Origin: Listeria ivanovii subsp. londoniensis
Lineage (GTDB): Bacteria > Bacillota > Bacilli > Lactobacillales > Listeriaceae
DNA length: 64,000 nt
Direction of reading: 5' to 3'
Assembly: GCF_000763495.1 (NCBI RefSeq)
Contig: NZ_CP009576.1
Location: 1,250,001-1,314,000, forward strand
The stretch's first letter is position 1. Each line of letters begins with the position of its first letter. A program made the translations under genes and the position numbers. Shown in pieces: positions 12,089-46,151 of the stretch. The notes below the pieces were generated by a model. The model worked only from the letters and a program-made list of their open reading frames with translations. It made no database searches and was not told the DNA's origin.

Positions 12089-13948
12089 ATGAGCGTGTTA
12101 AATAAAAAAAGAGTTATAGTTGGAGTTTTGCTATTATTATCAAGTTTTTTTATGATAGGCTATTACTCAGATTCATTAAAGGTGAATGTTAGTTGGCTTG
12201 TTTTCTTGTCATCATTGATTGTACTTTATTTTAGACAAGTAAAAAATTTTCAATTTCAGTGGTCGGCATCAATTACTGCAGTCATCTTAAGTTTATTTTG
12301 GATGGCTTCATCATATAATGGTGGACCCTATGGTGGGAATTTTCTTTTTAATAGTATCATTTTAATAGCAACTTTTTTTGCTATTACTGCATTTGTCTTA
12401 CTATTAATACAAGAGTTGAAAACTGAATATAAGATTCAGAATCAAAATAAACCAAAATGGACCTTATTTGCGCTCTTTTCCCTAATTCCTTTTTTTGTAT
12501 GGATGATGTCTTTTCTTGCCTATTTTCCAGCAAAAATGACTTTTGATTCTTACTTCCAATGGGCAATGGCTCACGGGGTTCGCCAATATAGTGAGTGGCA
12601 CCCAATGTTACATACTTTATGGATACAAGCTACTAGTTTTATCTATAATTCACCTGCTAGTTATATTTTTTCACAAATAGTAGTTGTTTCATTAATTGTT
12701 GGTTATGCAATTTACACACTTGTAAAAATGGGCGCAAGCAAATGGATAGGGTTAGCTATTTCTATAGGCTATGCTATCTATCCTGTGGCAATGATTTATT
12801 CAGCTACAGCATGGAAGGATTTTCCTTTTGCAGCCTTTATTCTACTTTTCACAGTGCTTATTTTGAAAATAGTCCAATCTAATGGGCAATGGCTAAAAAA
12901 TTGGTGGCACTTCGCAGCCTTTATTTTAGTAGCCTTTATTTGTATTAACTTAAGAAATAATGGGATTATGATAGTAGTAGTTTCCCTTGTTGTTTTACTT
13001 ATCTTCATGAAAAATTATCGACTTATTATTGGGGGAGTATTAGTTGGAACTCTGGGACTGAATTTTTTATTCGGTTTTGTTATGACAAATGGTTTACATG
13101 CACAATCCAACCCATTAAATCAGGCTTTAGCAATTCCTTCACAACAAATTGGTGCAACTTTTTATAATGATGGAGACTTTACTCCAGAACTGAAAGAATA
13201 TTTCACTTCTATTTTGCCAGAAGAAAACTGGAAAAAAGATTATAATCCATATACCGTGGATCCGATTAAACATGATGCTGAATATGATGCAACTGTTATT
13301 GAAGATGACTTTGGACTATATCTCAAAAACTGGTTTAAGCTACTTACACACAATTTTGGCATATATGTAGAAGCGTATCTGGATCAGATTGCGGTAATAT
13401 GGCAGTTTGACTCACCAGATGATTACAAAGTATTTTTTGATACACCGGCAGATATTCAAGATACGCGATATGATGTAAAAGCATTTGCCCATTATTTTCC
13501 AGATGGATTATCTGAGGAAGAAATGAACAAATTAGGTTATAAAAAATACGAAGAAGAATATAAGAGTGTAACTGGAAAAGAGGCAATTAGTTACAATGAG
13601 TATAAAGAGAGAATTAAAGATTCTATCCAACCACTTATCTCTGAAACTAAATCTGCTAGTATAAAGAAAATAATGGATGGCATTTATATGAAAACAACGC
13701 AAGAATGGCAAAATTATTTACTAAAAGGAGCAATACCACTTCTTTTCCTTATAATTGCAATCGCATCTGTTTGTTTCCAAAGTTCGAAAAAAAGATTGCT
13801 TATATTTGCCCCAGTAATTATGGCCGTAATAACTATAGCAGTTGCTATGCCAGCGACAGACTATAGATATTGTTATAGTTTTGTCTTTACTGTGCCAATT
13901 GTGTTCTTTGCTACTAAATTAAGAATTATTGAGAAAAATGAAATCTAA
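12089..13948 (+). CDS. Polytopic membrane protein, DUF6020-like, glycan modification
   Basis: A 619-aa membrane protein with about a dozen predicted helices. One large soluble loop lies at about residues 345-520, followed by two or three final helices. An aspartate-containing first outer loop (MTFDSYFQWAMAHG) and a nearby HPMLHTLW resemble GT-C lipid-linked sugar transferases of the DUF6020/YfhO type. It overlaps or abuts a GT2 gene of the dolichol-phosphate-sugar kind. Together they fit a three-component system that puts a sugar on WTA outside the membrane: a GT2 loads undecaprenyl phosphate and the GT-C transfers it. The substrate sugar is not visible. Confidence 0.7.
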   Translation: MSVLNKKRVIVGVLLLLSSFFMIGYYSDSLKVNVSWLVFLSSLIVLYFRQVKNFQFQWSASITAVILSLFWMASSYNGGPYGGNFLFNSIILIATFFAITAFVLLLIQELKTEYKIQNQNKPKWTLFALFSLIPFFVWMMSFLAYFPAKMTFDSYFQWAMAHGVRQYSEWHPMLHTLWIQATSFIYNSPASYIFSQIVVVSLIVGYAIYTLVKMGASKWIGLAISIGYAIYPVAMIYSATAWKDFPFAAFILLFTVLILKIVQSNGQWLKNWWHFAAFILVAFICINLRNNGIMIVVVSLVVLLIFMKNYRLIIGGVLVGTLGLNFLFGFVMTNGLHAQSNPLNQALAIPSQQIGATFYNDGDFTPELKEYFTSILPEENWKKDYNPYTVDPIKHDAEYDATVIEDDFGLYLKNWFKLLTHNFGIYVEAYLDQIAVIWQFDSPDDYKVFFDTPADIQDTRYDVKAFAHYFPDGLSEEEMNKLGYKKYEEEYKSVTGKEAISYNEYKERIKDSIQPLISETKSASIKKIMDGIYMKTTQEWQNYLLKGAIPLLFLIIAIASVCFQSSKKRLLIFAPVIMAVITIAVAMPATDYRYCYSFVFTVPIVFFATKLRIIEKNEI

Positions 13949-25671: not shown

Positions 25672-27228
25672 TTGTTTAAAATTATGAAAGACTTTACCGA
25701 GCAAGAGAAAATTATCGTTCTAGACTTTGGTAGCCAGTATAACCAACTTATTACGCGCCGTATCCGTGATTTCGGTGTGTACAGTGAATTACATCCGCAT
25801 ACTATCACTCTCGAAGAAATGAAAGCACTAAATCCAACGGGAATTATTTTTTCAGGAGGACCAAACAGCGTATACGACAAAGACGCTTTTCGTGCGGATG
25901 AAAGAATTTTTGACATGGGGATTCCGATTTTAGGAATTTGTTACGGAATGCAACTAATGACTGTCCATTTTGCCGGAAAAGTAGAAGCAGCAAAAGACCG
26001 TGAATACGGAAAAGCAGATATCCATGTAGAAGTACCTAACCGTTTATTTGCCGGACTTCCAACCGATCAAGTAGTTTGGATGAGCCACGGAGACTTAGTA
26101 GTGAAAGAACCAGCTGGCTTTGAAGTAACGACAACAAGCCCATCTTGTCCGATTGCCGGAATTGCTGACGAAGCTCGCCAACTCTACGGGGTACAATTCC
26201 ATCCAGAAGTACGTCACTCTGAATACGGAAACGAATTACTGAAGAATTTTGCATTAAACATCTGTGGCTGTAAAGGTGACTGGACAATGGAAAACTTTAG
26301 CGAAGTCGAAATCGCTAAAATCCAAGAAATCGTTGGCGACAAAAAAGTCTTGCTAGCGCTTTCTGGTGGCGTTGATTCTTCTGTTGTTGGTGTGTTAATC
26401 CATAAAGCAATTGGTGACCAACTAACCTGTATTTTCGTTGACCACGGCTTGCTTCGTAAAGGTGAAGCAGACCAAGTAATGGCGACTCTACAAGGTGAAT
26501 TCAATATGAACATCATCAAAGTAGATGCGAAAAAACGCTTCATGGACAAATTAGCAGGCGTTTCTGACCCAGAACAAAAACGCAAAATCATCGGTAACGA
26601 ATTCATTTACGTTTTTGATGATGAAGCAAACAAACTAGATGGCGTAGAATTTCTCGCACAAGGAACACTTTACACCGACATTATCGAAAGTGGTACAGCA
26701 ACCGCCCAAACAATCAAATCACATCACAACGTTGGCGGCTTACCAGAAGATATGCAATTTAAACTAATCGAACCACTAAACACGCTTTTCAAAGATGAAG
26801 TTCGTGCCCTTGGAACCGAACTTGGCATGCCTGACGCAATCGTGTGGCGCCAACCATTCCCGGGTCCAGGTCTTGGAATCCGCGTACTTGGCGAAATCAC
26901 CGAAGAAAAACTAGAAATCGTTCGTGATTCTGATTATATTTTACGCGAAGAAATCAAAAAAGCCGGTTTAGAACGCGAAATCTGGCAATACTTCACAGCA
27001 CTTCCAAATATCCGTAGCGTTGGTGTTATGGGTGACGGAAGAACGTATGACCATACTGTGGTTGTTCGTGCGGTGACGAGTATTGATGGAATGACAGCGG
27101 ATTGGGCTCGTATTCCGTGGGATGTGCTGGAGAAGATTTCGGTGCGGATTGTGAATGAAGTAGCTCATGTGAACCGGGTTGTTTATGATATTACGAGTAA
27201 ACCGCCTGCTACGGTGGAGTGGGAGTAA
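25672..27228 (+). CDS. guaA: GMP synthase (glutamine-hydrolysing)
   Basis: Converts XMP to GMP with glutamine and ATP. The class I amidotransferase domain shows GICYGMQ (nucleophile Cys) and GVQFHPE (His-Glu). The synthetase domain has the PP-loop [10 protein letters not shown] and, near the end, KPPATVEWE. From TTG 25672 the protein is 518 aa; AAGG lies 6 nt before it. ATG 25684 is a shorter option but 14 nt or more from any ribosome site. The 3' flank is the integration site of the island that follows, a known hotspot for elements in Gram-positives. Confidence 0.95.
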
Positions 27229-27286: not shown

Positions 27287-27301
27287 ATTGCACTTTTTAT
27301 A
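27287..27301 (+). repeat. Putative attL
   Basis: ATTGCACTTTTTATA, identical to 34982-34996. It lies 7 bp beyond the guaA terminator and includes the stop codon of the integrase. Confidence 0.7.
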
Positions 27302-28286
27302 ATTCTTGCCGTATAAACTTTTTCGTGTGTTTATTTCTTGGTGATGTATCTAGGTTTTCGATGGGTGGGGTGTAACTGATTATTCCTTTTAGTTTAGTGG
27401 CTACTTCAAAATTACTATTTGGATAAAGGTGTCCATAAGTTCCGAGTGTAGTTTCAATATCTTCATGACCTAATCGCTCTTTAATAATAAGCGGATTTTC
27501 TCCCATACTTATTAGTAGTGATGCATGAGAATGTCGCAATGCGTGGAAGCGTATTCTATGAATTCCAGCTTTTTTAGCGAAGCGAGCTATAGCATAACTG
27601 ATAGTATGTTTCTGACACGGGGGGTTATTGTAACTGATAATAAATCCAGTGTCTAATATGTTTTGTTGTGTATTTTTCCACTCTTTTAGTAGTTGTAATG
27701 TATCTACATCTAGAACAATTTGGAGGGTACTGGCTCTAGTTTTAGGTTCTACAAAATAATATTCATTTATATTTCTATAAAAAAGTGTTTTTGTGATACT
27801 GAGAATTCCAGTTTCAAAATCAATGTCGTCCCATTGTAATGTTGTTGCTTCACCAATTCGTATACCAGTCATAAAGAGTAACCAAATAGAAATAAATAAA
27901 AAATGTTGATAATAGTCTTCTTTAAAAATACATGATATGACTTTTTCAAATTCTTCTTTTGTCCAAAATTCGACTTTTGTCTTTTGTTTTTTTACATTAC
28001 CTATTATCTTTGCGGGATTAACTTCTGCTAAGTTTAGAACAACAGCTCTATCCATTGCTATTGAAAAAATACCTTGAACACCACGTACATAAGAAGCACT
28101 TAATTTTTTTATTAGAGATAGCTGCCAACTTTGAATAAGAAGGGGATCAATTCCATTAACAGGAAATTTATAGAAATACTTGAAATATTTTTTAATACTA
28201 GATTCTCTATTTTCATAAGTTCGTAATTTTACTTGTGATTTGTACCATGGAAGAAATATTTCTTCAGTGAAATATTTAAATGTCAT
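27297..28286 (-). CDS. Tyrosine integrase, core-binding and catalytic domains (split)
   Basis: A 329-aa fragment carrying the SAM-like core-binding domain (residues 1-100) and catalytic domain. Catalytic residues seen: Arg in TGIRIGEA, Lys region TKTLF, HALRHSHAS (HxxR), GHEDI (His) and the tyrosine in TTLGTYGHLYPN. The arm-binding domain normally fused in front is encoded by the overlapping upstream frame, joined by an ATGA stop-start. A frameshift of one base would fuse them. The enzyme would integrate and excise the island at the guaA end. Confidence 0.85.
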   Translation of the reverse strand: MTFKYFTEEIFLPWYKSQVKLRTYENRESSIKKYFKYFYKFPVNGIDPLLIQSWQLSLIKKLSASYVRGVQGIFSIAMDRAVVLNLAEVNPAKIIGNVKKQKTKVEFWTKEEFEKVISCIFKEDYYQHFLFISIWLLFMTGIRIGEATTLQWDDIDFETGILSITKTLFYRNINEYYFVEPKTRASTLQIVLDVDTLQLLKEWKNTQQNILDTGFIISYNNPPCQKHTISYAIARFAKKAGIHRIRFHALRHSHASLLISMGENPLIIKERLGHEDIETTLGTYGHLYPNSNFEVATKLKGIISYTPPIENLDTSPRNKHTKKFIRQEL

Positions 28287-28474
28287 TTCATCTGTTTTTC
28301 TGCTAATTCTTCTGGTTTCATTAGGATTAATCGAGAGTATTCCTCTTTTGCTTCTTTTATTGTTTTGAAGCTACTAGAATATTTTTGGATTTTCTTCCCA
28401 TCAGAATCGTAACCTAGGTTTGCTCTGAAATAATATGTTCCGTTTTTTGCTTTTTTAATTGGGCTTGTTGCCAT
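28283..28474 (-). CDS. Integrase arm-type DNA-binding domain (split part)
   Basis: A 63-aa protein matching the N-terminal AP2-like arm-binding domain of Tn916-type integrases: SPIKKAKNGTYYFRANLGYD, then KKIQKYSSSFKTIKEA. GGAGGA lies 6 nt before its ATG. Its stop overlaps the start of the catalytic part by 4 nt (ATGA). The two pieces could still work together by reinitiation and pairing, or the gene could be inactivated. Confidence 0.75.
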   Translation of the reverse strand: MATSPIKKAKNGTYYFRANLGYDSDGKKIQKYSSSFKTIKEAKEEYSRLILMKPEELAEKQMK

Positions 28475-28517
28475 GTTTATCCTCCTTAGATAATATGCAA
28501 GAAGTTTTAATCAGGCT

Positions 28518-28682
28518 CTATTTTTCGCTTCTAAAAGTAATACCTAGTAGTTCTTCTACCGTTTCTCGTGGCACTTTATCTAATTTCTTTGCTTGATAGT
28601 ATGTGTGTCCTTTACTTATCATTAGCTTCTTTGCTTGTCTAATAATATCTGCTGAGAATGAAGGACCATAGCCTAGGGGGAC
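28518..28682 (-). pseudogene. DUF3173 gene truncated by IS insertion
   Basis: The surviving part reads LGYGPSFSADIIRQAKKLM then KGHTYYQAKKLDKVPRETVEELLGI, the pattern of DUF3173, small proteins that sit next to integrases of ICEs and may act as excision factors. The first codons have been replaced by the end of an IS3-family element, so the apparent start is IS sequence. Beyond the IS the minus strand reads KKSIIDL in one frame, which may be the missing start, but no start codon is visible there. Confidence 0.65.
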
Positions 28683-28720
28683 TGACCCAAGAAAGTGAGA
28701 CAAATATAAAGACCCTGTAA

Positions 28721-29566
28721 TTAGGTTGTTTGTTGCCGAAAGTCATGAGGAGATAAATAACCTAATTTTTGTTGAATACGAATAGTATTATAATATGTTA
28801 TATATTCTAACACAGTTTGTGTTACAATTGTTTTAGAACTTGTAGTTTTGGGTTCTAAGTAGAACGTTTCAGCCTTTAGTAAAGAATGAAATGATTCAAT
28901 GCAGGCATTATCAGCAGGTGTTCCTTTGCGGGACATGCTCATGGAAATGCCTTTTTCTTTAACCCTGTTTTGAAAAGCAAATGCAGTGTACACTGAACCT
29001 TGATTGCTATGTAAGGTACATGGTTGAGTTAATTCTGGCAGTTGATTTAAAGTATCTAGTACCAATTCAACATCTTGAGTTTCACCAATGGTTTGAGCGA
29101 TAATTTGCCCGTCATATAAATCCATGATTGATGATAGATATTTTTTTGTTGGAAGATAGGTAATGTCAGTTACCAATTTTTCTAATGATCGGCTTGCTTT
29201 AAAGTCACACTCAAGTAGATTTGGTGCTACCAAATGTAGTTTTCCTGGTCGTGGGAGCTTTCTTTTCTTTTTCACCCGACATTGCCACCCAAAGTGTTTT
29301 ATAATCTTTTGTACTGTGTTCTTACTTATTTGATACGCTCTTTTTAGGAGTGCAGTGATTTTACGATAGCCATAACGAAATTTATGTTGTATACAGAGTT
29401 CCCCAATAGATTGAATCTTCCATGCCCAAACTTGTTGATGACTGATTAATTGCTTCTTCCAACGATAGTAGGTCGATCGAGCTACATTCAATGCTTCAAG
29501 GATGACGCAGAGTGGTGTAATAGACTTAAAATAAGCAACTACTTGGATGACAACTTGTGGGACCAA
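28721..29566 (-). pseudogene. IS3-family OrfB transposase, catalytic Asp lost
   Basis: A 281-aa frame with HTH_21 and rve domains. The first catalytic Asp is present (VTDITYLPTKKY) and the glutamate too (NACIESFHSLLKAE), but the second motif reads LHSNQGSVY where active relatives have HSDQG. This Asp-to-Asn change should abolish transposition. The frame continues upstream as KKAHRIGKEL, out of phase with orfA. Confidence 0.8.
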
Positions 29567-29592
29567 CTCCTTTCCAATGCGATGTGCTTTTT

Positions 29593-29868
29593 TTAGATTT
29601 CATTTTGTTGTTCCAGAAACTTAATCCGATTTTCTGTGCGTTCTTGATCAGATACATCTTCTGGACCAAAGCCAAACGAATATTGTTTACCTACTGGCTG
29701 ACTCAAACGATAATGTTCATTGTTTTGATACCAACGCCACCATGTTTTCACTTGAGTTTTATTTTTAATATTTAGTTCTAACATAATTTGTTTTGTGGTA
29801 TAGCCTTATTTTTTCATTTCTATTGCGTTTTGTTTTACTTCTAGTGGATACATTACTCTTGTTCCCAT
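29593..29868 (-). pseudogene. IS3-family OrfA with premature stop
   Basis: From ATG 29868 the frame reads MGTRVMYPLEVKQNAIEMKK, hits a TAA at 29808-29806, and continues in phase as GYTTKQIMLELNIKNKT to the LEQQNEI end. A CAA-to-TAA change explains the stop. At its end GAAATCT-AAAAAAAG seems to lack one T, which separates it from orfB. Confidence 0.8.
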
Positions 29869-30029
29869 TAGAAAAACACCTCTTCAATTTCATATATAAT
29901 TCTATTATATATTTCAACTTATGGGGTGTTTTTATTTTGTCTCACTTTTTTGGGGCACTGCAAATCTATAATAGATTTTTTGTGTTTTTTTCTATGAAAA
30001 TATATATATTATTTTAAATTTAAAATCAG

Positions 30030-30200
30030 TTATTCTGATTCGCTTGAACTTTTTGAACAAGTCAAATCTACTTGAGAAATTAACCAATCAATCATATAAT
30101 CTTCTATTTTAATATTTAGCTGGCGGTATAACTTTAATGTTGATAACCGCTCTGTATCATCATGTTTATCCCAATATTCATCAATAGTTACCATGTTCAT
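30030..30200 (-). CDS. Small unknown protein of the island (56 aa)
   Basis: Begins MNMVTIDEYWDKHDDTER and ends CSKSSSESE. A GGGGTGA ribosome site lies 5 nt before the ATG. The composition (acidic, with IKIEDYMIDWLIS) looks like a real folded small protein and it lies in the usual place for accessory genes of an integrase module. I do not recognise a family. Confidence 0.5.
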   Translation of the reverse strand: MNMVTIDEYWDKHDDTERLSTLKLYRQLNIKIEDYMIDWLISQVDLTCSKSSSESE

Positions 30201-30432
30201 TACTGTCACCCCAATTTTAATGATGATAGAAATATTATATGTCGAAATGGTGAAAAAGGATAAAAGTTATTCCTGTTATTTTACTCATATCAGTGTATTT
30301 TAGCTACGTAATCAGATAAAATAATTATGGATAAGATATATAAACATTGGTAAAGCTTTTATAGTTTAATCTAAATGTCCGAGTAAGATATTAGTGGGAC
30401 TATAAGGCTTTTTCTTATCCTGCCTTATTCAT

Positions 30433-30492
30433 TTAGCCACCAACTAAAACAGAAATACAGACACTTATAACAACAGGTAATATGTTTACCAT
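30433..30492 (-). CDS. Short hydrophobic peptide, SHP-like (19 aa)
   Basis: MVNILPVVISVCISVLVGG, with GGGAAGTG (30505-30498) 5 nt before the ATG. It is divergent from the Rgg-like gene at 30580, with an 87-bp shared gap. Streptococcal SHP pheromones are about 20-23 aa, hydrophobic, end in IIVGG-like tails and lie beside rgg genes. Against this, the basic N-terminus of typical SHPs is missing. A small membrane toxin or chance ORF are alternatives. Confidence 0.4.
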   Translation of the reverse strand: MVNILPVVISVCISVLVGG

Positions 30493-30579
30493 TTTTTCAC
30501 TTCCCGACAATCAAATAATAGCATAGAGAGAGTTATATTTAATTTTGACTACAAAAATAGACAGAGGGGATGAAGTTTA

Positions 30580-30813
30580 ATGGAAATGAGATCTGGAGCA
30601 ACATTGAAAAAGATTCGGGTGTATTGTAATTCAAAAGAGCGAGATGTTTATGAATCAATTATGTCACGGGCACATTTATACCAAATAGAAAAAAACATTC
30701 AAATGCCATCATGGCATATTGTCGTAGCTATGTTGCAAAAATATACGATGACGTTAGCTGAATTTGAATACATTCATAATGATTATCAGCTCGATCCAAT
30801 TCAATCTCTATGA
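30580..30813 (+). CDS. Rgg-like HTH protein, truncated
   Basis: A 77-aa protein. TLKKIRVYCNSKERDVYESI then MSRAHLYQIEKNIQMPS and LQKYTMTLAEFEYIHNDY fit the XRE-type HTH that opens Rgg/RRNPP regulators, including the EFEYI end of the domain. Full Rgg proteins have about 200 further residues of helical repeats that bind the peptide; here a stop follows directly and no such region is readable downstream. It may be a stump or a stand-alone DNA-binding protein. GAGGGG lies 10 nt before the ATG. Confidence 0.6.
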   Translation: MEMRSGATLKKIRVYCNSKERDVYESIMSRAHLYQIEKNIQMPSWHIVVAMLQKYTMTLAEFEYIHNDYQLDPIQSL

Positions 30814-30911
30814 TTGAGTATTAGAGGATAGTTTTAAAAAATTGGTAATAATAAAATTTGAAGCAGGTAAAATATTTTCGGTTTATTAAGATCAAAGAAT
30901 TAAAGTGTGGA

Positions 30912-30929
30912 TAAATGTAAGTACATTTA
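30912..30929 (+). promoter_or_regulatory. Perfect dyad just before the STAND gene
   Basis: TAAATGTA-AG-TACATTTA has two perfect 8-bp arms and ends 3 nt before the CTGGGAGGGG ribosome region. It could be an operator, or fold over the leader RNA. Confidence 0.4.
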
Positions 30930-30950
30930 AGCTGGGAGGGGAAAACTACT

Positions 30951-33900
30951 ATGTCAAAAATAAATGAAATTCAAAAAGCGATAATTCAACTAGAAGGCGG
31001 AGCTTTTCAAAGTCTCATGGACGCATATTTATATGTTAAGTATGGATATTCTAACATTTCTGAGCTTGGTTCACATATAGGAACTAATAAGACTACAAAA
31101 GGGAGTCCTGATTCTTTCATAAGAAAAGAGAATGGGAAATATATATTGATAACATACGGAACGGTATTACATACAAGCTATGCGAAAATAGCAGACGATA
31201 TAAAAAAATGTTTGGATAGTACTAAAACGGATATTGATATTGGAGATATTGATGAAATTATCGCCTGTCATACTTCAAGTCGATTAACACCTAATGAAAA
31301 CAAGCAATTATATGAGCTTTTTAAAAATATTACTTTAGTAGGAATTGGAGAAGTAGCTAAAGATCTTTATTTTTACTATCAATCATTGGCAAAAGACCAT
31401 CTAGGTGTAGGAATTGATACAGATCAAATTTTGACAGTAACAGAGTTTTATAATAAAAATGCGCATAGTAGTTTTAGCACACCGTTAGAAATGCCTTTAT
31501 TAGGCAGAAATACCGAAAAAGATGATTTGGTAGAAGCTTTAGGTACATATAATTTAGTTTTAATAAATGGCAAGGCTGGAGTTGGAAAAACAAGACTAGC
31601 ATTAGAAGTGTGTGTGAACTATGCAAAGGAAAATAATGTCGATTTAAAATGTGTGAAACAAAATGGAGAATCTATTTATGATGATTTAGCAAGCCATTTT
31701 ATAGATAATAAAAATTATTTGATTTTTATTGATGATGCGAACCAACTTAGTCAATTAAGTCATTTACTGGATATGGCTGTAGATATTAATCGCAAGTACA
31801 CAATGAAACTTGTACTAACTGTTAGAGATTATGCAACAAAAAAAATAGAAGATAATATTAAAACTAAGTTATTTCCTTATGTTTATGAACTTGCCCCACT
31901 TTCATCTGAGAATATTGAACAAGTCATTAAAGAAAATTTAGGTATAAATAATACTATGATAGTTAAGCGAATTTTAGATATTTCTTCAGGTAGCTTGAGG
32001 ATAGCCATAATGGCGGGAACATGTGTTAATAAGAAATTATTTGATCAGGTGAAAAATGTATATGAAATATATAGAAACTATTATAGTGATATTTTAGTAG
32101 GTATGAATAAAAACCACTTGATTATTGCAAGTCTTATTGCTTTTTCAGATTCTATGCGACTTAACTCGGAACATGTGATTTATCAGTTAGCAAAAGAGCA
32201 AGGAATTAATAGCGCAACATTCAATGAAGTAAGTAAAGAACTTCACGAATTAGAAGTTGTTGATATTTTTGAAAATTCAGCTATAAAATTTAATGAAGAG
32301 TCATTTGGGAACTATTTGTTATATTTTGTATTGTATGAGAAAAGATGGATAACGATAGCTGAGTTAATAGATAAAACTTTGTTGGATTTCCCAAGTCGGT
32401 TGAGTTATACAATTTCAACATTATTGAGCCTATTTAATAATCAGGATCTAGAAGATTATATTACTGTAGAAATTAGAAAGTTATGGGAGAGTAAATTCAA
32501 GTATAGAAGTGTTCAAGATAAGTGGGCTTTTGTGAAAATATTCAAATATTTTATTATAGAACCAGCGCTACTATTTACAAAGATAGAAATAGATAAGTTA
32601 GAAAAAATTGATGTGGATTTTTTGAAATATGATTTTGAAGAGAAAAGTAATCATCTGATGATAAAATCTGATTTAATGGAGAGCCTGATATCATATAAAT
32701 ATACTGATAGATTTCAAGATGCTATAGAACTAGCTATATATTATATGCAGCATAATAATAATTACCCAATGGATTTTTATTTCTTATTTAGTAAATATTG
32801 GACAATTGATAAAGATTCTCACACCTTTAACTATCAAAAAGAAACTATGTTAGTGAATACATTGTATCAATATTATCAAGGCGAAAATGATGATAAGATA
32901 GCTGTTGTTTTAATATCTCTTATAGGCTCTCTTCTGAAATTTCAGTTTGATAGTTCAAATTATATTAAAAATAATAAAGTTGAATTTTCACAGTATGGAC
33001 TATTGGACTCTAAGGCGCTGTTAGATCTCAGAAAAAAATGTATTGAAGTATTGGCAGTGTTATATCAAAACAATAATTATAAATTGAAAATATTAAACCT
33101 ACTAGATAATTATAGTTTTAGAGAGCAAACTACAACTAATTTGAATATAGCTATTCAAGATATTGTCAATATAGGGACTTTTCTTGAGAAGAACTTGTCT
33201 CAAGAAAAATTTGATGAATGTGTAGTGCTCAAATATTTTTTCGATTTGGCAGAACGATTAGAGCTAAGTAATCAAAAAGAATCTTTTATGGCATTTCAAA
33301 AAAATGAAAGTTTTATGTTATACACTGTATTAACTAGGGATGAATACTGTCGCAAAGATTGGAAAAAATATAAGGAAATTAAAGATAATGAACTTAGAGA
33401 AATAGCTCGTACAATTACAGAGAAAGATTTTATAAATCTGATTATTATGTTTAAGTCTAAAAAAATATCATGTAATGACTGGGATTTTGAAAATAATATG
33501 ATTATGCTTTTATTAAATTTATCAAATGATGATTACTTTATTAGCTGCTGTGAAGTATTAATGGAGCATAATGTTTCTGTGGCAATGAATATTCATGCTA
33601 TACTGCAAAAGATGATGAATATCAAAGGATATGATGATAGTAAAGTTTTGATTGAAAAATATAGTTTTCAAGAAAGAGATACATGGATAACAACCTTATT
33701 TTCACTACTAAATCCTGAGGAAATGTCAAAAAAACGAAGTGAAGATATAATATTATTAATTGATGAACAACAGAGTTTTTCTAGAAATATGTTAGAGGTA
33801 AGCGTTATAATGGCAGCTAACATAAACAATGATCATTTTGCAGTTGATTATCTCATAAAAATAATACAAAAAAATAAAGAAAACCTATTCATTTTCCCTG

Positions 33901-34634
33901 AGTTTTTTATTAGAACAGATACTGATGAAATAGAGGAATTGTATGACACTTTTACTAGCACGGATAGAAAGAATATACTGGCTGATATATATCTATTAGC
34001 TATACAAGATAATAGAGGACATTTTGATTATGATTATAAATGGTTTCTTTTTTTCTATAGCAAAAATAAAGATATCTTAAAACAAATAATTGCAATAGAA
34101 TTAAGAGAGTATCGGGCAAAAGATAGTGTTTTACAGGGAGTCTGGAAAATAGTAGATTTTAAGAAAGTAATGAATGAGATAGTTACTTTCGTTTACGAGA
34201 ATACAGATATTAATTTCGGCAAATTAGAATATATAAAAAGCATTTTTGCTGTAAAAGATTCAGAACATAAAATTAATAATTGGATATTAGACTACATTAA
34301 GGAAAATGCTACTAATATTGAAATGATGAAATTTATTTTTAGTATAATTTGTAATTTGAATTATTTTATTAAGAAAGAGGCAGTAACTACTTTTTGTAAA
34401 TTTAATAACTCATTTATTGATTTTTTGAAAATAAACATTTTGAAAACATGTTGGTCTTGGTCTGGCAGTGAAGTACCATATATAGATGAAGAAATATTAT
34501 TTATTGAAGAGCTAAATAAAAATCTAATTGGGTTAGATTTTATAGAGCATAGAAACGAACTATCTAGGATTGCAGTTAACTTAGTAAAAGAAAAGGATAG
34601 GGTTTTAGTAAAAGAATTCATCGAGCAGAGATAA
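30951..34634 (+). CDS. STAND-type NTPase with nuclease-like N-terminus, putative anti-phage protein
   Basis: A 1227-aa protein, cargo of the island. Residues 1-150 match a PD-(D/E)xK-like domain that opens Avs-type and related defence proteins: QLEGGAFQSLMDAYLY, GTNKTTKGSPDSF (44-56, candidate Asp 54), then YILITYGT where the E/Q-x-K element should be and reads T-Y-G. Residues 180-400 are a P-loop domain: Walker A GKAGVGKT (207-214), Walker B YLIFIDDAN (256-264), TVRDYA (290-295), then APLSSENI. The remaining 800 residues are helical, the position of the sensor in STAND proteins. Low GC and AT-rich codons set it apart from the chromosome. GGGAGGGG lies 10 nt upstream. Confidence 0.65.
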   Translation: MSKINEIQKAIIQLEGGAFQSLMDAYLYVKYGYSNISELGSHIGTNKTTKGSPDSFIRKENGKYILITYGTVLHTSYAKIADDIKKCLDSTKTDIDIGDIDEIIACHTSSRLTPNENKQLYELFKNITLVGIGEVAKDLYFYYQSLAKDHLGVGIDTDQILTVTEFYNKNAHSSFSTPLEMPLLGRNTEKDDLVEALGTYNLVLINGKAGVGKTRLALEVCVNYAKENNVDLKCVKQNGESIYDDLASHFIDNKNYLIFIDDANQLSQLSHLLDMAVDINRKYTMKLVLTVRDYATKKIEDNIKTKLFPYVYELAPLSSENIEQVIKENLGINNTMIVKRILDISSGSLRIAIMAGTCVNKKLFDQVKNVYEIYRNYYSDILVGMNKNHLIIASLIAFSDSMRLNSEHVIYQLAKEQGINSATFNEVSKELHELEVVDIFENSAIKFNEESFGNYLLYFVLYEKRWITIAELIDKTLLDFPSRLSYTISTLLSLFNNQDLEDYITVEIRKLWESKFKYRSVQDKWAFVKIFKYFIIEPALLFTKIEIDKLEKIDVDFLKYDFEEKSNHLMIKSDLMESLISYKYTDRFQDAIELAIYYMQHNNNYPMDFYFLFSKYWTIDKDSHTFNYQKETMLVNTLYQYYQGENDDKIAVVLISLIGSLLKFQFDSSNYIKNNKVEFSQYGLLDSKALLDLRKKCIEVLAVLYQNNNYKLKILNLLDNYSFREQTTTNLNIAIQDIVNIGTFLEKNLSQEKFDECVVLKYFFDLAERLELSNQKESFMAFQKNESFMLYTVLTRDEYCRKDWKKYKEIKDNELREIARTITEKDFINLIIMFKSKKISCNDWDFENNMIMLLLNLSNDDYFISCCEVLMEHNVSVAMNIHAILQKMMNIKGYDDSKVLIEKYSFQERDTWITTLFSLLNPEEMSKKRSEDIILLIDEQQSFSRNMLEVSVIMAANINNDHFAVDYLIKIIQKNKENLFIFPEFFIRTDTDEIEELYDTFTSTDRKNILADIYLLAIQDNRGHFDYDYKWFLFFYSKNKDILKQIIAIELREYRAKDSVLQGVWKIVDFKKVMNEIVTFVYENTDINFGKLEYIKSIFAVKDSEHKINNWILDYIKENATNIEMMKFIFSIICNLNYFIKKEAVTTFCKFNNSFIDFLKINILKTCWSWSGSEVPYIDEEILFIEELNKNLIGLDFIEHRNELSRIAVNLVKEKDRVLVKEFIEQR

Positions 34635-35237
34635 TTTGTTTTTAGGATCATTGAAAAATATAAACATTTGTATAAATCGAGCAAATTAAATTAAAGTAGT
34701 TTCCAAATCCACTGCTATTATATGTTGTAAATAGGAATTAAATTTTAACCATTAATCAATTTTTGTTGATGCATGTGCAATAACTACATAAGATTCTAGA
34801 AACGGAAGTATCTCGTTTTTACTGATGTAAAGAAATTAAATGTATACAACTTAGTTTGTGCTTATTAGAAGGAAAATAAATTTAAAAAAAGAAGACCATT
34901 TCTATTCGGTCTTCTCTTCTCATAACTATATTGAATATCAGAGGCAATTACTTTCCAAAGCCTGAGCGAGACTAAAACTTCATTGCACTTTTTATATTTT
35001 TGACTTCAGTATAAAGAGTTTTATATTTCTTTAAAACTCTTTATTATCAACGATATTTGCCAATACTCCATACATAGGTTATGGAGTGGGAATAAGGCAA
35101 AAAGCTTTGGAAATCCTTATTTATAGGGACTCTCAAGGCTTTTTCTTTATTTTTGATAACAGTTATGTATATTTTGGTATAATGTAATCATGTATTTTTA
35201 AACTATACTTTATAAACTTAAAAAGGAGGTACTAAAT
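34635..35237. other. Island right end and flanking hairpins, no gene
   Basis: Contains a hairpin GAAGACC/GGTCTTC (34891-34914) with a T tract only on the minus strand, attR (34982-34996), an AAAGAGTTTTA/TAAAACTCTTT hairpin (35013-35042), and a plus-strand terminator AAAAAGCTTTG/CAAGGCTTTTT (35099-35144). A TGGTATAAT extended -10 at 35175-35183 probably serves the gene at 35238. No coding frame is convincing. Confidence 0.6.
34982..34996 (+). repeat. Putative attR
   Basis: ATTGCACTTTTTATA, identical to the putative attL at 27287-27301. Confidence 0.7.
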
Positions 35238-35639
35238 TTGGACAGTACTAGCATACTTACTATATTAATTAGCATTTTGAGTTCATCTATATTTACCCTT
35301 ATTTTATCAACTTTGTTTTTTGACCCCTTCAAAGATAGAAAAAAATATATATTTGAAGAAAAACAACGCATATACATTAGTATTATTACGTTTGCTCAAA
35401 TTGCTTTATATCCAAAAGAAACAGGATTTGTTGCTACTATTGAATATGAAACAAAAGACATGAATCTCACTGAACGCTCTGATATAGCTCTCAATAATAT
35501 ACAAATATTCATACCAAGAGTAGCCTTACTTACTAAGAATCCTCGTTTAATAACCCCAATTAATAATTTTTTAAAAGAACAAAATGAAGAATCTTTCAAT
35601 CTGATGATAGATGTTTTGAGAAAAGATTTATTCAAGTAA
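35238..35639 (+). CDS. Small membrane-anchored protein of unknown function
   Basis: A 133-aa protein starting with TTG, 7 nt after a perfect AAGGAGGT (35223-35230). Residues 4-28 are one strong membrane helix (ILTILISILSSSIFTLILST), followed by a cytosolic-type domain. I recognise no family. It lies just outside the right att repeat, so it belongs to older accessory DNA rather than the island proper. Confidence 0.65.
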   Translation: MDSTSILTILISILSSSIFTLILSTLFFDPFKDRKKYIFEEKQRIYISIITFAQIALYPKETGFVATIEYETKDMNLTERSDIALNNIQIFIPRVALLTKNPRLITPINNFLKEQNEESFNLMIDVLRKDLFK

Positions 35640-35679
35640 CTTTTTTAGATTTACAACTACTGTACTTCCGCTTGCTAAA

Positions 35680-35728
35680 CTTGATTTTTCATAAAGAAAT
35701 ACAACCCATTTCTTTATGAAAAATCAAG
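35680..35728. repeat. Perfect 21-bp inverted repeat
   Basis: CTTGATTTTTCATAAAGAAAT (35680-35700) is fully complementary to 35708-35728 around a 7-base loop. No T tract follows on either strand. Confidence 0.85.
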
Positions 35729-35789
35729 TGGAATTAGTTGGTGTTGCTTGTAACTAAAAAGAGGTACTTCTTTTTGGAATACACGTTGT

Positions 35790-36038
35790 TTATTTATGCA
35801 GATTATTTTTTCTTAATATTAATTCCTTCCACTTTAAAAAAAGCGAGATAAAACCATTTGATATATATGGGTTACAATGGATACCATCCAAGGTCACGAA
35901 TGTTTCTCCTGACTTATCTAACTCACTTTGAGTGATGATTGGTTTTGAACTTGAAATAGCTACCCAAATACTCTTATATTTTTTGTCTTTCATGAGAAGA
36001 TCATACGTGTACCCATCAATCTCTCCCGTGCGCTTGAA
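35790..36038 (-). pseudogene. 3' fragment of an unknown gene cut by an IS150-like element
   Basis: The 67-aa frame from ATG 35993 has no ribosome site. The same frame stays open upstream as FKRTGEIDGYTYDLLMKDKK to the IS hairpin at 36039, which suggests that the true gene started beyond the insertion. The remaining protein includes SSSKPIITQSELDKSGETF. Family unknown. Confidence 0.5.
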
Positions 36039-37130
36039 CCGACCTCCAAAAGTTAGACTAAAAATCTAACTTTTGGAGGTCGGTATTTTTATTACAAAGT
36101 ATAATTTTGAATTTAAATTAAAAATAGTTCAAGAATATCTTGACAGTAAAGGCGGTTACACATATCTAGCCAAAAAACATGGTGTCAAAACGGAGCAACA
36201 AGGTCGGAAAAGGGTAAAAGCTTACCAACAATTGGTATAGAAGGACTTTTACAAAAGCAGCAAAATAGACATTATTCTGTTCAAGAGAAGTTAAATGCGA
36301 TAGTTTTATACTAAACAAGTGAGTTATCTTATCGTGAAATTGCCAATCAAATTGGTCTCAATAATCCCACATTAATTGTTAGTTGGATGAAAAGATTTCG
36401 GGAAGATGGGAGTAGATGGAATCTCAAAAACGAAAGGACGTTTACCTAAAATGGCTGCAAAAAAAGAAAATCATCTGCACAAGATAACTTAGATTGAAAA
36501 GCTTGAAAAAGAAAAACACTTGTTAAAAAATAGAGCTGGCTTATTTAAAGGAGTTGAGAAGGCTGCGTTTAGGGGACAAACGCAAAATGAGAGAATTGCA
36601 CGAATCATTCACAGTCTCCGAAGATGCTTCCGATTAACCGAAATCTTAGAAACCCTGCGGTTTCCTAAATCTACTTGCATGTACTGGCAAAAGCATTTGG
36701 ATGGAGAAAATCTGACAGAAAAGATATAGAATGAGGTAAAAGATATTCGTAAAACACATCTTAATTACGGCTATAGACGATTGACGCAAGAACTTAAACG
36801 TCATGGCTTCTAAATAAATAAAAAGAAGGCACAACGCTTAATTCAAAAATTGGGATTACAAGTCAAATCATTCACCCGTAAATCTTGGAAGTATAATTCC
36901 CTATAGAGGAAATGTAGGGGAAATTACCAAAAATCGCGTAAAAAGACACTTTTATACTGCTATACCTCAACCACAGATACGACGGGGTTTAAATATTTTG
37001 AAACAGATTCCTCTGGTATACTTCGTCAGAAGAAAATGTATTTAAATCCTTTTATGGATTTGTATAATAACGAAATAATTAGCTATAATACCTCAAAACG
37101 TCCTACTGCTCAAGCAATTATGACTTCTAT
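36039..37130 (+). pseudogene. IS150-like (IS3 family) element, decayed and truncated
   Basis: Starts with a 19-bp perfect hairpin CCGACCTCCAAAAGTTAGA (36039-36057 with 36065-36083). Then follow OrfA (TKYNFEFKLKIVQEYLDSKG) and OrfB pieces in several frames: KLEKEKHLLKNRAGLF, ERIARIIHSLRRCFRL, HLNYGYRRLTQEL and MYLNPFMDLYNNEIISYN. Many stops interrupt it. The end of OrfB and the right end are missing; the sequence stops at the oxidoreductase gene. Confidence 0.85.
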
Positions 37131-37145
37131 TCCATTTCCTTCTTG

Positions 37146-38153
37146 TCACTCATCAAACCTTATGATTACCTTCCCCTCTGGATGTCCGGTTGCGACTAGC
37201 TCTAAGGCTTGATTGATGTCCTCTAACTGAAATTTTGTTGGATTAATAGCTGGGATAATCTGATTTTTTTCGACAATCTTAGAGACTTGTTCCAATTGTT
37301 TTCCATCTGCCCGAACAAAAATAAAATGATATTCGATATTTTTTTCTTTTGCTTTTTTATCATACTTGGAGCCAGCTAAACTAAATAAAAATTGCTTCCA
37401 TTTTGGTAGTCCTTGGCTTATTGCAAAACTTTTATTAGGGCCTGTTAAAAGACTTAATAAACGACCACCTGATTTGATAATTGCTAATTCTCGTTCAAAT
37501 TCGGATGCACCTAATGTATCAATCACAAAATCGACTGGTTCTAGTACTTCCCAATAATTTTCTGTTTTATAGTCGATAAAGCGATCTGCACCAACTGCTA
37601 AAGTTTGTTCTTTAGCGGTAATGTTTCCTGATACAATAACATTTAATCCCATTGATTTTGCAATAGGGATGGCCATTTGACCAAAACTACCTGATCCTCC
37701 TGCAATAAATACGGTCTGACCTGCTTTAGCGTTTAATTTTTCGTGCAGACCTTGATAAGCTGTTAGACCTGTTAAGGGAACCGCTGCTCCTGTAACAAAA
37801 TCTAAATGGCTAGGTAAAAACCATATGGCAGTTGCATCAACAGCGACATATTCTGCAAAAGCACCAATATGTTCTATCGGTAGTCGAGTGTAGACAGCAT
37901 CTCCAACTTTAAAGCCTTGGACATTGTCGCCAACTTTCTCAACTATACCCGTTAATTCATTCCCAAGAGTGAAAGGCATAGAAAAATTTTGGATTAGTTT
38001 TACTGAACCAGTTATGTTCAGAATTTCTAGCGGATTAACAGCAGCCGCTTTCACTTTTATTAATACTTGGGTATCCAAAATGGGGGGGATCGGTATTTCT
38101 GTAATATTCGCATGTAGTTCTTTTGAATATTTGCTGATTTGTGCTGCTTTCAT
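37146..38153 (-). CDS. NADPH:quinone oxidoreductase-like zinc-less MDR protein
   Basis: A 335-aa medium-chain reductase. Seen: GroES-like N-domain with VNPLEIL and LGNELTGIVEKVG, then the Rossmann motif FIAGGSGSFGQMAI and GADRFIDYK. No catalytic zinc cysteine cluster, so it is of the quinone or enal reductase type. A TetR operator lies 65 bp upstream that matches the one before the tetR gene, so the gene should be induced together with the SDR, probably by a reactive electrophile. Confidence 0.85.
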   Translation of the reverse strand: MKAAQISKYSKELHANITEIPIPPILDTQVLIKVKAAAVNPLEILNITGSVKLIQNFSMPFTLGNELTGIVEKVGDNVQGFKVGDAVYTRLPIEHIGAFAEYVAVDATAIWFLPSHLDFVTGAAVPLTGLTAYQGLHEKLNAKAGQTVFIAGGSGSFGQMAIPIAKSMGLNVIVSGNITAKEQTLAVGADRFIDYKTENYWEVLEPVDFVIDTLGASEFERELAIIKSGGRLLSLLTGPNKSFAISQGLPKWKQFLFSLAGSKYDKKAKEKNIEYHFIFVRADGKQLEQVSKIVEKNQIIPAINPTKFQLEDINQALELVATGHPEGKVIIRFDE

Positions 38154-44504: not shown

Positions 44505-46151
44505 ATGACAGAATGGGTGATTGTTCGTTGGTTATTAGGCTTTGTTAAACCGTTAAAGCTGCGAATGATTATGGCAATTTTACTTGGTATTATTAGTAAT
44601 TTATCGGTGATTGCGATTTCTTTAATTGGAGCATATGGAATTTTGGCGGTTGTTTTAGGACAAGCTCTGAGTCCGCAAAAGTGGCTTATCGTAATGGTGG
44701 GCTGTGGAATAATTCGTGGGCTGGCGAGGTACGCGGAACAGTATTTAAATCACGATATTGCTTTTCGATTATTAGCGATTATTCGGGAACGAATTTTTGC
44801 GACGCTTAGAAAACTTGGGCCTGCACGCTTATCTGGTAAAAAAAGTGGTGACTTAATTACGGCAATTACAACCGATGTGGAAGCTTTGGAAGTGTTTTTT
44901 GCGCATACTATTTCACCAGTTTTCATTGCGCTTGGAACGACGATAGTGACAGTGGGCTATTTAGGGACTTATGATGTTGGTTTAGCGTTAATACTTTTCA
45001 TTGGTCAAGTTTTAGTTGGTATCGTTTTACCAGTAATTAGTTATAACCGAAACAAGCAGATTGGAGCGGATTATCAAAGGGAATTTGTTGGGTTAAATCA
45101 AGCAGTGATGGAAAATGTTGCTAGTTTACAAGATGTTTTTCAATTTAAATTAGGGAAAAAGCGCTTAGCTATGTTAAATGAGAGCGGGCAAAAGTTGAAT
45201 AGGCAGTATCAAAAGAAATTAAAACAGGGAACTCAGCTACAAATTTTGAGTGAATGGGTTTTGATTGGAACTGCTGCTTTGGTTTTAGGGTTAGGAAGTT
45301 TCTGGCAATTACCAGTGGAAACTGTTTTAATTGGGACAGTGTTAAGTTTAGGTTCTTTTGGGTCGGTGTTAGCGTTAAATGGCTTAGGAACGGCTTTGTT
45401 AACTACTTTTGCTAGTGGGAAACGGTTGAATGCTTTAACGGAAGAAAAAACAACGGTTGTTTTTGACGGTCAGCTAGAATTAACGGATTTTGAAAAAGCA
45501 GAACTTGATAAAGTAAGTTTTAGCTATGATGGCAACCAGTCAATTTTGAGTGAGGTGTCGCTTGATTTGCCAAATGGAAAATGGTTAGGAATTGGTGGAG
45601 AAAGTGGTAGTGGGAAAAGTACGTTGATGAAAATTCTGATGCGATATTTTGATCCAGAGGGGCAAGTTAGCTTAAATGGAAAAAATCTTCCAAATCTTAA
45701 AGAATCATCACTGCATCAACTTGAAGGCGTGATGGAGCAAAGTACATTTTTATTTGAAGATACACTTGGTAATAATATTCGGTTAGGGAAAAAGGATGCA
45801 ACTTTGGAAGAAGTAAAAGAAGCCGCGAGAAAAGCCGCTTTAGACGAGTGGATTGAAACTTTACCAGAGGGATATGATACGAAAGTTGGCGGTCAAGCAC
45901 GGAATTTATCTGATGGGGAACGCCAACGAATTGGCCTAGCACGACTATTTCTTCATGATGCGCCGCTTTTACTGCTCGATGAACCAACGAGTAATTTGGA
46001 TTATGTGAATGAGCAGGCGATTCTTACAACTTTACGCTCAGAGGTTAAGGATAAAACGGTTTTGGTAATTTCCCACCGTGAAACAACGCTGGATTTAGCG
46101 GAAGAGCGGATTTATTTGGAGAAAGGGAAGTTGAATAGGATTATAAAATAA
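44505..46151 (+). CDS. ABC exporter half, CydC-like
   Basis: A 548-aa half-transporter that begins 1 nt after the preceding stop (ATG 44505, GGGGGTG upstream). Six membrane helices, then Walker A GESGSGKST, signature LSDGERQR and Walker B LLLLDEPTSNLD. The LSDGE signature differs from the canonical LSGGQ in the partner gene, so the two ATP sites are probably unequal, as in many heterodimeric exporters. Confidence 0.88.
   Translation: MTEWVIVRWLLGFVKPLKLRMIMAILLGIISNLSVIAISLIGAYGILAVVLGQALSPQKWLIVMVGCGIIRGLARYAEQYLNHDIAFRLLAIIRERIFATLRKLGPARLSGKKSGDLITAITTDVEALEVFFAHTISPVFIALGTTIVTVGYLGTYDVGLALILFIGQVLVGIVLPVISYNRNKQIGADYQREFVGLNQAVMENVASLQDVFQFKLGKKRLAMLNESGQKLNRQYQKKLKQGTQLQILSEWVLIGTAALVLGLGSFWQLPVETVLIGTVLSLGSFGSVLALNGLGTALLTTFASGKRLNALTEEKTTVVFDGQLELTDFEKAELDKVSFSYDGNQSILSEVSLDLPNGKWLGIGGESGSGKSTLMKILMRYFDPEGQVSLNGKNLPNLKESSLHQLEGVMEQSTFLFEDTLGNNIRLGKKDATLEEVKEAARKAALDEWIETLPEGYDTKVGGQARNLSDGERQRIGLARLFLHDAPLLLLDEPTSNLDYVNEQAILTTLRSEVKDKTVLVISHRETTLDLAEERIYLEKGKLNRIIK

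Follow-up and report, generated by a model that had tools for sequence, protein, structure and literature searches.

The DNA analyzed here, referred to as the window, is a 64,000-nucleotide stretch of Listeria ivanovii subsp. londoniensis (contig NZ_CP009576.1, positions 1,250,001 to 1,314,000). Behind its guaA gene lies an island that carries a tyrosine integrase and one large cargo open reading frame (ORF), which is intact and encodes a protein of 1227 amino acids (30951-34634, forward strand). The island flanks are formed by a repeated guaA 3′ end, GGAGTGGGARTAA, at 27216-27228 and 35083-35095, 7,867 bp apart. At 29.5% G+C, the island is poorer in these bases than guaA (43.2%) and the right flank (33.7%). 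The boundaries and the cargo parts are as follows.

27216 to 27228, forward strand: attL, the final 13 bases of guaA, GGAGTGGGAGTAA; guaA ends at 27228.
30951 to 31400, forward strand: cargo residues 1-150, restriction-endonuclease-like N-terminal domain, from the structure model and conserved residues.
31491 to 32540, forward strand: cargo residues 181-530, STAND NTPase and the helical domains that follow it.
32541 to 34634, forward strand: cargo residues 531-1227 and stop codon, helical-repeat C-terminus and putative sensor, from the structure model.
34886 to 35082, forward strand: right end of the element, common to four other elements of the genus.
35083 to 35095, forward strand: attR, GGAGTGGGAATAA, followed by a guaA-type hairpin.

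On the forward strand, no further guaA-type core was found between guaA and position 45000, and shuffling of the 9.9-kb region produced such a core in only 1 of 500 trials. To the right of attR, the window aligns with locus L085 from the end of guaA onwards (77.8% identity over 63 columns). In L086 and L087, guaA likewise runs directly into a hairpin, and the likeness to the sequence right of attR was seen by eye. We read these three loci, all from other species of the genus (genomes G011, G001 and G015), as empty sites; the calls were made by inspection and for L085 also by alignment. The right end of the island (34886-35106) shows 73-77% identity to those of the elements L079, L080 and L081, and to that of L082 from 34931 only, and each of these four ends carries the same kind of guaA core. 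The boundaries agree with the insertion point of GIsul2, stated as GAGTGGGA of guaA in the part of the source available to us (PMC9376610). Likewise, the available text of a second source locates ICELm1 and Tn5801_B23 of Listeria monocytogenes downstream of guaA (PMC8386393). The guaA 3′-end duplication and the integrase domains bear out the integrase-type island behind guaA that a preliminary description of this DNA had proposed.

Some further observations concern this insertion site. L080 and L081 (G005, G019) have three to four guaA-type cores in tandem behind guaA, an apparent tandem accretion of elements, and G019 has one more copy, at 94% identity, of the guaA 3′ end. In G004, a genome of 83% completeness, guaA matches only as several separate pieces (C1:1066951-1070078). 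In the window, the segment right of attR (35238-37146) holds a 133-residue ORF, for which no family scored above cut-off, and transposase-like remnants, for which matching copies exist elsewhere in the genus.

Close to both island ends lies an exact 15-bp direct repeat, ATTGCACTTTTTATA, which the preliminary description had correctly placed on either side of the integrase and the 1227-residue ORF. A search of the window found no third match at up to two mismatches.

27287 to 27301, forward strand: left copy of the 15-mer, within the element; a variant with two mismatches lies near the left end of L079.
34982 to 34996, forward strand: right copy of the 15-mer, within the element.

The same description had taken this repeat for the insert boundary and attachment site, which we consider highly improbable. 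An exact 15-mer repeat anywhere in the island arose in 42 of 200 dinucleotide shuffles and as such hence is weak evidence. A 15-mer common to both end zones was seen in none of 2000 shuffles, so the placement of an exact repeat near both ends is not due to chance, would favor an attachment role and needs an explanation. The sites read as empty, however, do not carry the single 15-mer expected for an attachment site; they have none at up to two mismatches and rejoin the window at the guaA core at 35083, past the right 15-mer. Moreover, the four related right ends continue past the position of the 15-mer up to the guaA core, and both copies therefore lie inside the element. The boundaries thus are the guaA 3′-end copies. 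Variants with one mismatch are present in the right ends of L079 and L082, and with up to two mismatches allowed, those of L080 and L081 have no 15-mer. Within 1.5 kb after guaA, the exact 15-mer was absent from all 29 genus and family loci (L002-L030), two of which (L002, L012) have a version with two mismatches. Possibly, the repeats are arm-type sites bound by the arm domain of the integrase.

For the cargo protein, Pfam matches and two overlapping structure models show a three-part build, in which an endonuclease-like domain, an nSTAND3/NLR-type NTPase and a long helical-repeat C-terminus unite effector-like, STAND NTPase and repeat-sensor parts in a single chain. The NTPase matched nSTAND3 (PF20720) with 36.1 bits, above the gathering cut-off of 27.2, and NACHT with 25.8 bits, under its cut-off of 26.7; nSTAND3 thus is the better fit. 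With a Walker A motif GKAGVGKTR (207-215) and a Walker B motif LIFIDDAN (257-264), the cargo is of STAND type, as had been proposed. Residues 481-1227 were modeled with a mean predicted local distance difference test score (pLDDT) of 80.6. PADLOC includes Avs models; at E values up to 1, the families listed for the cargo were PDC-S01, mad8 and TRIP13. No PADLOC 2023 model names the protein, in keeping with the first description.

The N-terminal domain has no Pfam family. Its model contains a helix (16-31), two strands (55-58 and 64-70), a second helix (76-87) and a further strand (100-107), an order that fits the alpha-beta-beta-beta-alpha-beta core of PD-(D/E)XK nucleases; residues 41-50 have a pLDDT below 50, and no nuclease match was obtained over the domain. 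Across homologues, there is little or no variation at F19, Q20, D24, P53, D54, K79 and D83, and P53-D54, with the first Asp of the motif, occurs in 51 of 51 full-length rows. At position 68, which lies on the second of the confidently modeled strands, 28 of these rows have Glu, 22 have Met and one, the window protein, has Thr. Gly70 stands where the catalytic Lys of X-K would be expected, and the invariant K79 lies on the next helix. As the acidic residue of the motif is replaced by Thr, DNA cleavage by the window protein is uncertain. A quick tree placed 19 of the 23 rows without Glu, among them the window protein, on one side of a branch with a support of 99, and grouping all 23 was weakly rejected (approximately unbiased test, p-AU 0.02); the window protein forms a long branch of unsure placement. 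The exchange at residue 68 thus is old and perhaps was made twice, and the N-terminal domain meanwhile stayed the best conserved part of the protein. Mean identities by group are highest over residues 1-150 (40-45%) and fall to 30-33% over 181-360 and to 17-20% over 521-1227; over the full length, identity to the window protein is 21-28% (38-row alignment).

Because residue 68 is not acidic, we give some weight to a version in which the sensor is the same, and the N-terminal domain of the window protein and its Met relatives is a pseudo-nuclease with an action other than DNA cleavage, for example binding of nucleic acid, turnover of nucleotides or a scaffold function. That Met or Thr is found in nearly half of the full-length rows, that truncated homologues with a readable motif have Glu or Met only, and that the domain is the best conserved part in the Glu and the non-Glu group alike, would agree with such a loss of cleavage. 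On the other hand, both groups retain Q20, D24, D54, K79 and D83, which might still bind a metal, and distant forms of the domain have Gln at position 68. We regard this version as tentative and rather unlikely. Unlikely, too, is an extension of it, in which the Met/Thr lineages turned a nuclease-fold effector into a non-cleaving or differently catalytic one and the Glu lineages keep the nuclease, so that two effector chemistries on one receptor scaffold would have been spread by islands at guaA, rpsI and rumA. Distant forms of the domain are also found in other settings: a 1094-residue protein of G573 fuses one to NACHT (L169, 6060-9344, reverse strand), and in G1005 and G919 the domain, with PD followed by QAT, stands at the start of proteins of 337 and 320 residues without NTPase (L174, 1432-2445, and L175, 1480-2442). 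The 337-residue protein has no Pfam family.

At E ≤ 1e-10, 16 of 395 genomes of the order had a relative of the cargo, and a profile of the N-terminal domain found 8 of 398 genomes in a class sample (E ≤ 1e-10) and 3 of 398 in a phylum sample (E ≤ 1e-5), each count with this genome included. The gene is not core in Listeria, as the preliminary description had implied; among the 22 genus genomes listed (of 25), matches occurred only here and in G003, whose relative has 26% identity and a different chromosomal place. In L093 (5975-7155), a Cro/CI-type regulator is found near this distant homologue, as is an ORF with a match to Fst toxin of 35.3 bits at a cut-off of 36; both neighbors recur in L099. 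A pattern-based scan of named genomes yielded 55 loci, mostly from Bacillota, the others from Fusobacteriota, Bacteroidota, Chloroflexota, Gastranaerophilales, Dojkabacteria, a Bacteriovorax metagenome-assembled genome (MAG) and two methanogen MAGs. Binning errors are possible, because L144, one of the methanogen loci, hardly differs from that of a Bacteroidales MAG (L145), with branch lengths near zero. Fifteen plasmid records matched the cargo, 13 of them from Leptospira, and the one Leptospira plasmid homologue examined is of the Glu type.

Neighborhoods were compared for the window and 64 homologue loci, some of them fragments or near-copies; L094, L095, L098, L099 and L105 were removed as duplicates of named loci, and L107 and L108 were left out. 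In four of the 65, guaA is near the homologue, namely in the window, Enterococcus sp. 665A (L136), Alkalibacterium pelagium (L161) and a Clostridiales MAG (L109). The Enterococcus locus has guaA-type cores at 13829 and 5927, about 7.9 kb apart, that enclose Int, DUF3173, REP, a helix-turn-helix (HTH) protein and the homologue, with the order of Int and cargo relative to guaA reversed versus the window. No second guaA core of such an element was recognised within the sequence stretch examined in L161 and L109. Four of 65 loci have rplM-rpsI upstream of the homologue (L100, L101, L140, L142; Pfam-checked in L101), and in nine a rumA-like methyltransferase piece of more than 100 residues lies upstream, no more than about 300 bases away (cluster C0; Pfam-checked in L113). 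The available parts of published work name guaA, rpsI and rumA as targets of integrative conjugative elements. Three homologues lie within BREX clusters (L104, L106, L153), with BrxC, an Eco57I-type methylase and PglZ Pfam-checked in L104. Among 29 loci with at least one scanned neighbor, nine have a defence-type one: BREX (L104), restriction-modification (L155, L134, L125, L163), GmrSD (L158), KAP (L109) or Schlafen-type (L139, L097). Judged from these gene contents, cargo relatives reside on mobile elements and in defence loci. By BLAST cluster, 11 of 65 loci also have a RhuM-family gene near the homologue; it was checked with Pfam in L110 (13787-14809).

A STAND protein on such elements could also serve other ends, such as keeping out rival plasmids or islands, or regulating and maintaining the element that carries it. 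The cargo does ride on site-specific elements, at 7074-14021 in L096 (G251) the homologue has an ArdA antirestriction gene on one side and an AAA_10 gene on the other, an arrangement like that of conjugative elements, and STAND proteins include regulators such as MalT, which was among the matches of the cargo in a fold comparison. Relatives that lie in BREX clusters or next to restriction genes speak against such a role, however, and the Pfam scan revealed no DNA-binding output domain in the cargo. We hence hold it to be quite unlikely.

Taken as a whole, we interpret the locus as a guaA-specific 7,867-bp island, probably not self-excising, in which the only large intact gene codes for an NLR-like (STAND) anti-phage sensor that works as a single protein, and assign this reading a probability of roughly 0.66. 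An anti-phage function is suggested by analogy. As in Avs and NLR proteins, the divergent C-terminal repeats would bind a phage protein and the NTPase would then oligomerize. N-terminal domains might thereby be brought together and activated, so that nucleic acid would be damaged and phage production halted, often with arrest or death of the cell. The least certain step is cleavage by the N-terminal domain, since its acidic motif residue is replaced in the window protein. Several points weigh against the sensor reading. The window protein has Thr68 in place of the Glu or Met of its relatives and thus has neither an acidic residue nor Gln in the (D/E)XK half. No solved nuclease matched the N-terminal domain in a fold comparison that barely covered it, and among the families listed from PADLOC 2023 there was no Avs-named model and no defence model that fits beyond the NTPase. 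Phage records and viral contigs contained no cargo relative. Finally, the defence-type neighbors come from a hand-chosen set, large ORFs first and without matched control, and ordinary genes are found there as well (OmpA, S-adenosylhomocysteine hydrolase, HAD, sugar hydrolase).

The remainder of the island holds the mobility module and small genes.

27297 to 28286, reverse strand: tyrosine integrase, core-binding and catalytic part, 329 residues (Pfam Phage_integrase 1.2e-23, Phage_int_SAM_3 1.6e-6).
28283 to 28474, reverse strand: arm-binding part of the integrase, a separate ORF of 63 residues (Pfam Arm-DNA-bind_4 1.9e-9).
28518 to 28703, reverse strand: DUF3173 gene without start (Pfam DUF3173 6.6e-21, model positions 10-57 of 58).
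28683 to 29957, reverse strand: IS3-family insertion sequence (IS) with 22-bp inverted ends (91%); transposase at 28721-29566 (NCBIfam transpos_IS3 9.3e-72).
30030 to 30209, reverse strand: ORF of 59 residues without Pfam, NCBIfam or PADLOC match.
30580 to 30813, forward strand: ORF of 77 residues, weak HTH (Pfam HTH_31 0.017, below cut-off; PADLOC HTH_VI 0.00062).

The two integrase ORFs overlap by four bases, and integrase relatives are single ORFs, of 382 residues with both parts in L108 and of 406 residues in L136. The IS interrupts the DUF3173 gene at its missing start, the first codons of this ORF falling within the IS end (arm 28683-28704). It has no second full-length match in the genome and one partial match of 70%. 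With the integrase frame split and DUF3173 cut, mobility looks damaged, and the island probably is fixed and no longer self-excising, its cargo ORF being intact. A small self-contained unit, as had been envisaged, is not supported. The regulatory genes assumed between integrase and cargo are mostly the IS3-family element, and what remains is the 77-residue ORF with its sub-cut-off HTH matches, beside the DUF3173 fragment and the 59-residue ORF. Opposite the transposase gene, Rfam rli23, a Listeria small RNA of antisense type, matched at 28820-28917 (forward strand) with 40.7 bits, less than the gathering score of 45. Between IS and HTH gene, a hydrophobic ORF of 19 codons (30433-30492, reverse strand) follows a Shine-Dalgarno-like stretch; it has no relative among the fetched loci and no unusual fold.

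Among known guaA integrative elements (ICELm1, Tn5801_B23, streptococcal guaA elements and GIsul2), the island shares the insertion at the guaA 3′ end, the GAGTGGGA core and the integrase, as far as the available parts of the sources describe them. It differs by its split integrase frame, its defence-type cargo and the absence of relaxase and conjugation families from the eight ORFs scanned with Pfam, families that an integrative conjugative or mobilisable element would carry. The Enterococcus element (L136) has a REP protein. Avs (AVAST) proteins are anti-phage STAND proteins, of which Avs1-4 carry nucleases and Avs5 carries Sir2. In the available part of one report, the nucleases of Avs1-4 are activated by terminase, portal or another phage protein (PMC12931631). 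The cargo resembles them in having effector-like domain, STAND NTPase and repeat sensor in one protein, and is distinct in that its N-terminal domain has no Pfam name and no Avs-named PADLOC model was listed. To bacterial NACHT/NLR-like proteins it is linked by its NLR-type NTPase and by the G573 fusion, although its own NACHT score stays below cut-off. The cargo thus probably represents an Avs/NLR-like family not named by PADLOC 2023 and kin to known STAND immune proteins. If so, a family with its own effector domain would join the bacterial STAND immune proteins, with receptors carried on small site-specific islands mainly in Bacillota and with further relatives dispersed over Bacteroidota, Chloroflexota, plasmids of Leptospira and some archaeal MAGs. 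Glu versus Met or Thr on one scaffold would then provide a natural experiment on the need of an NLR effector for nuclease activity.

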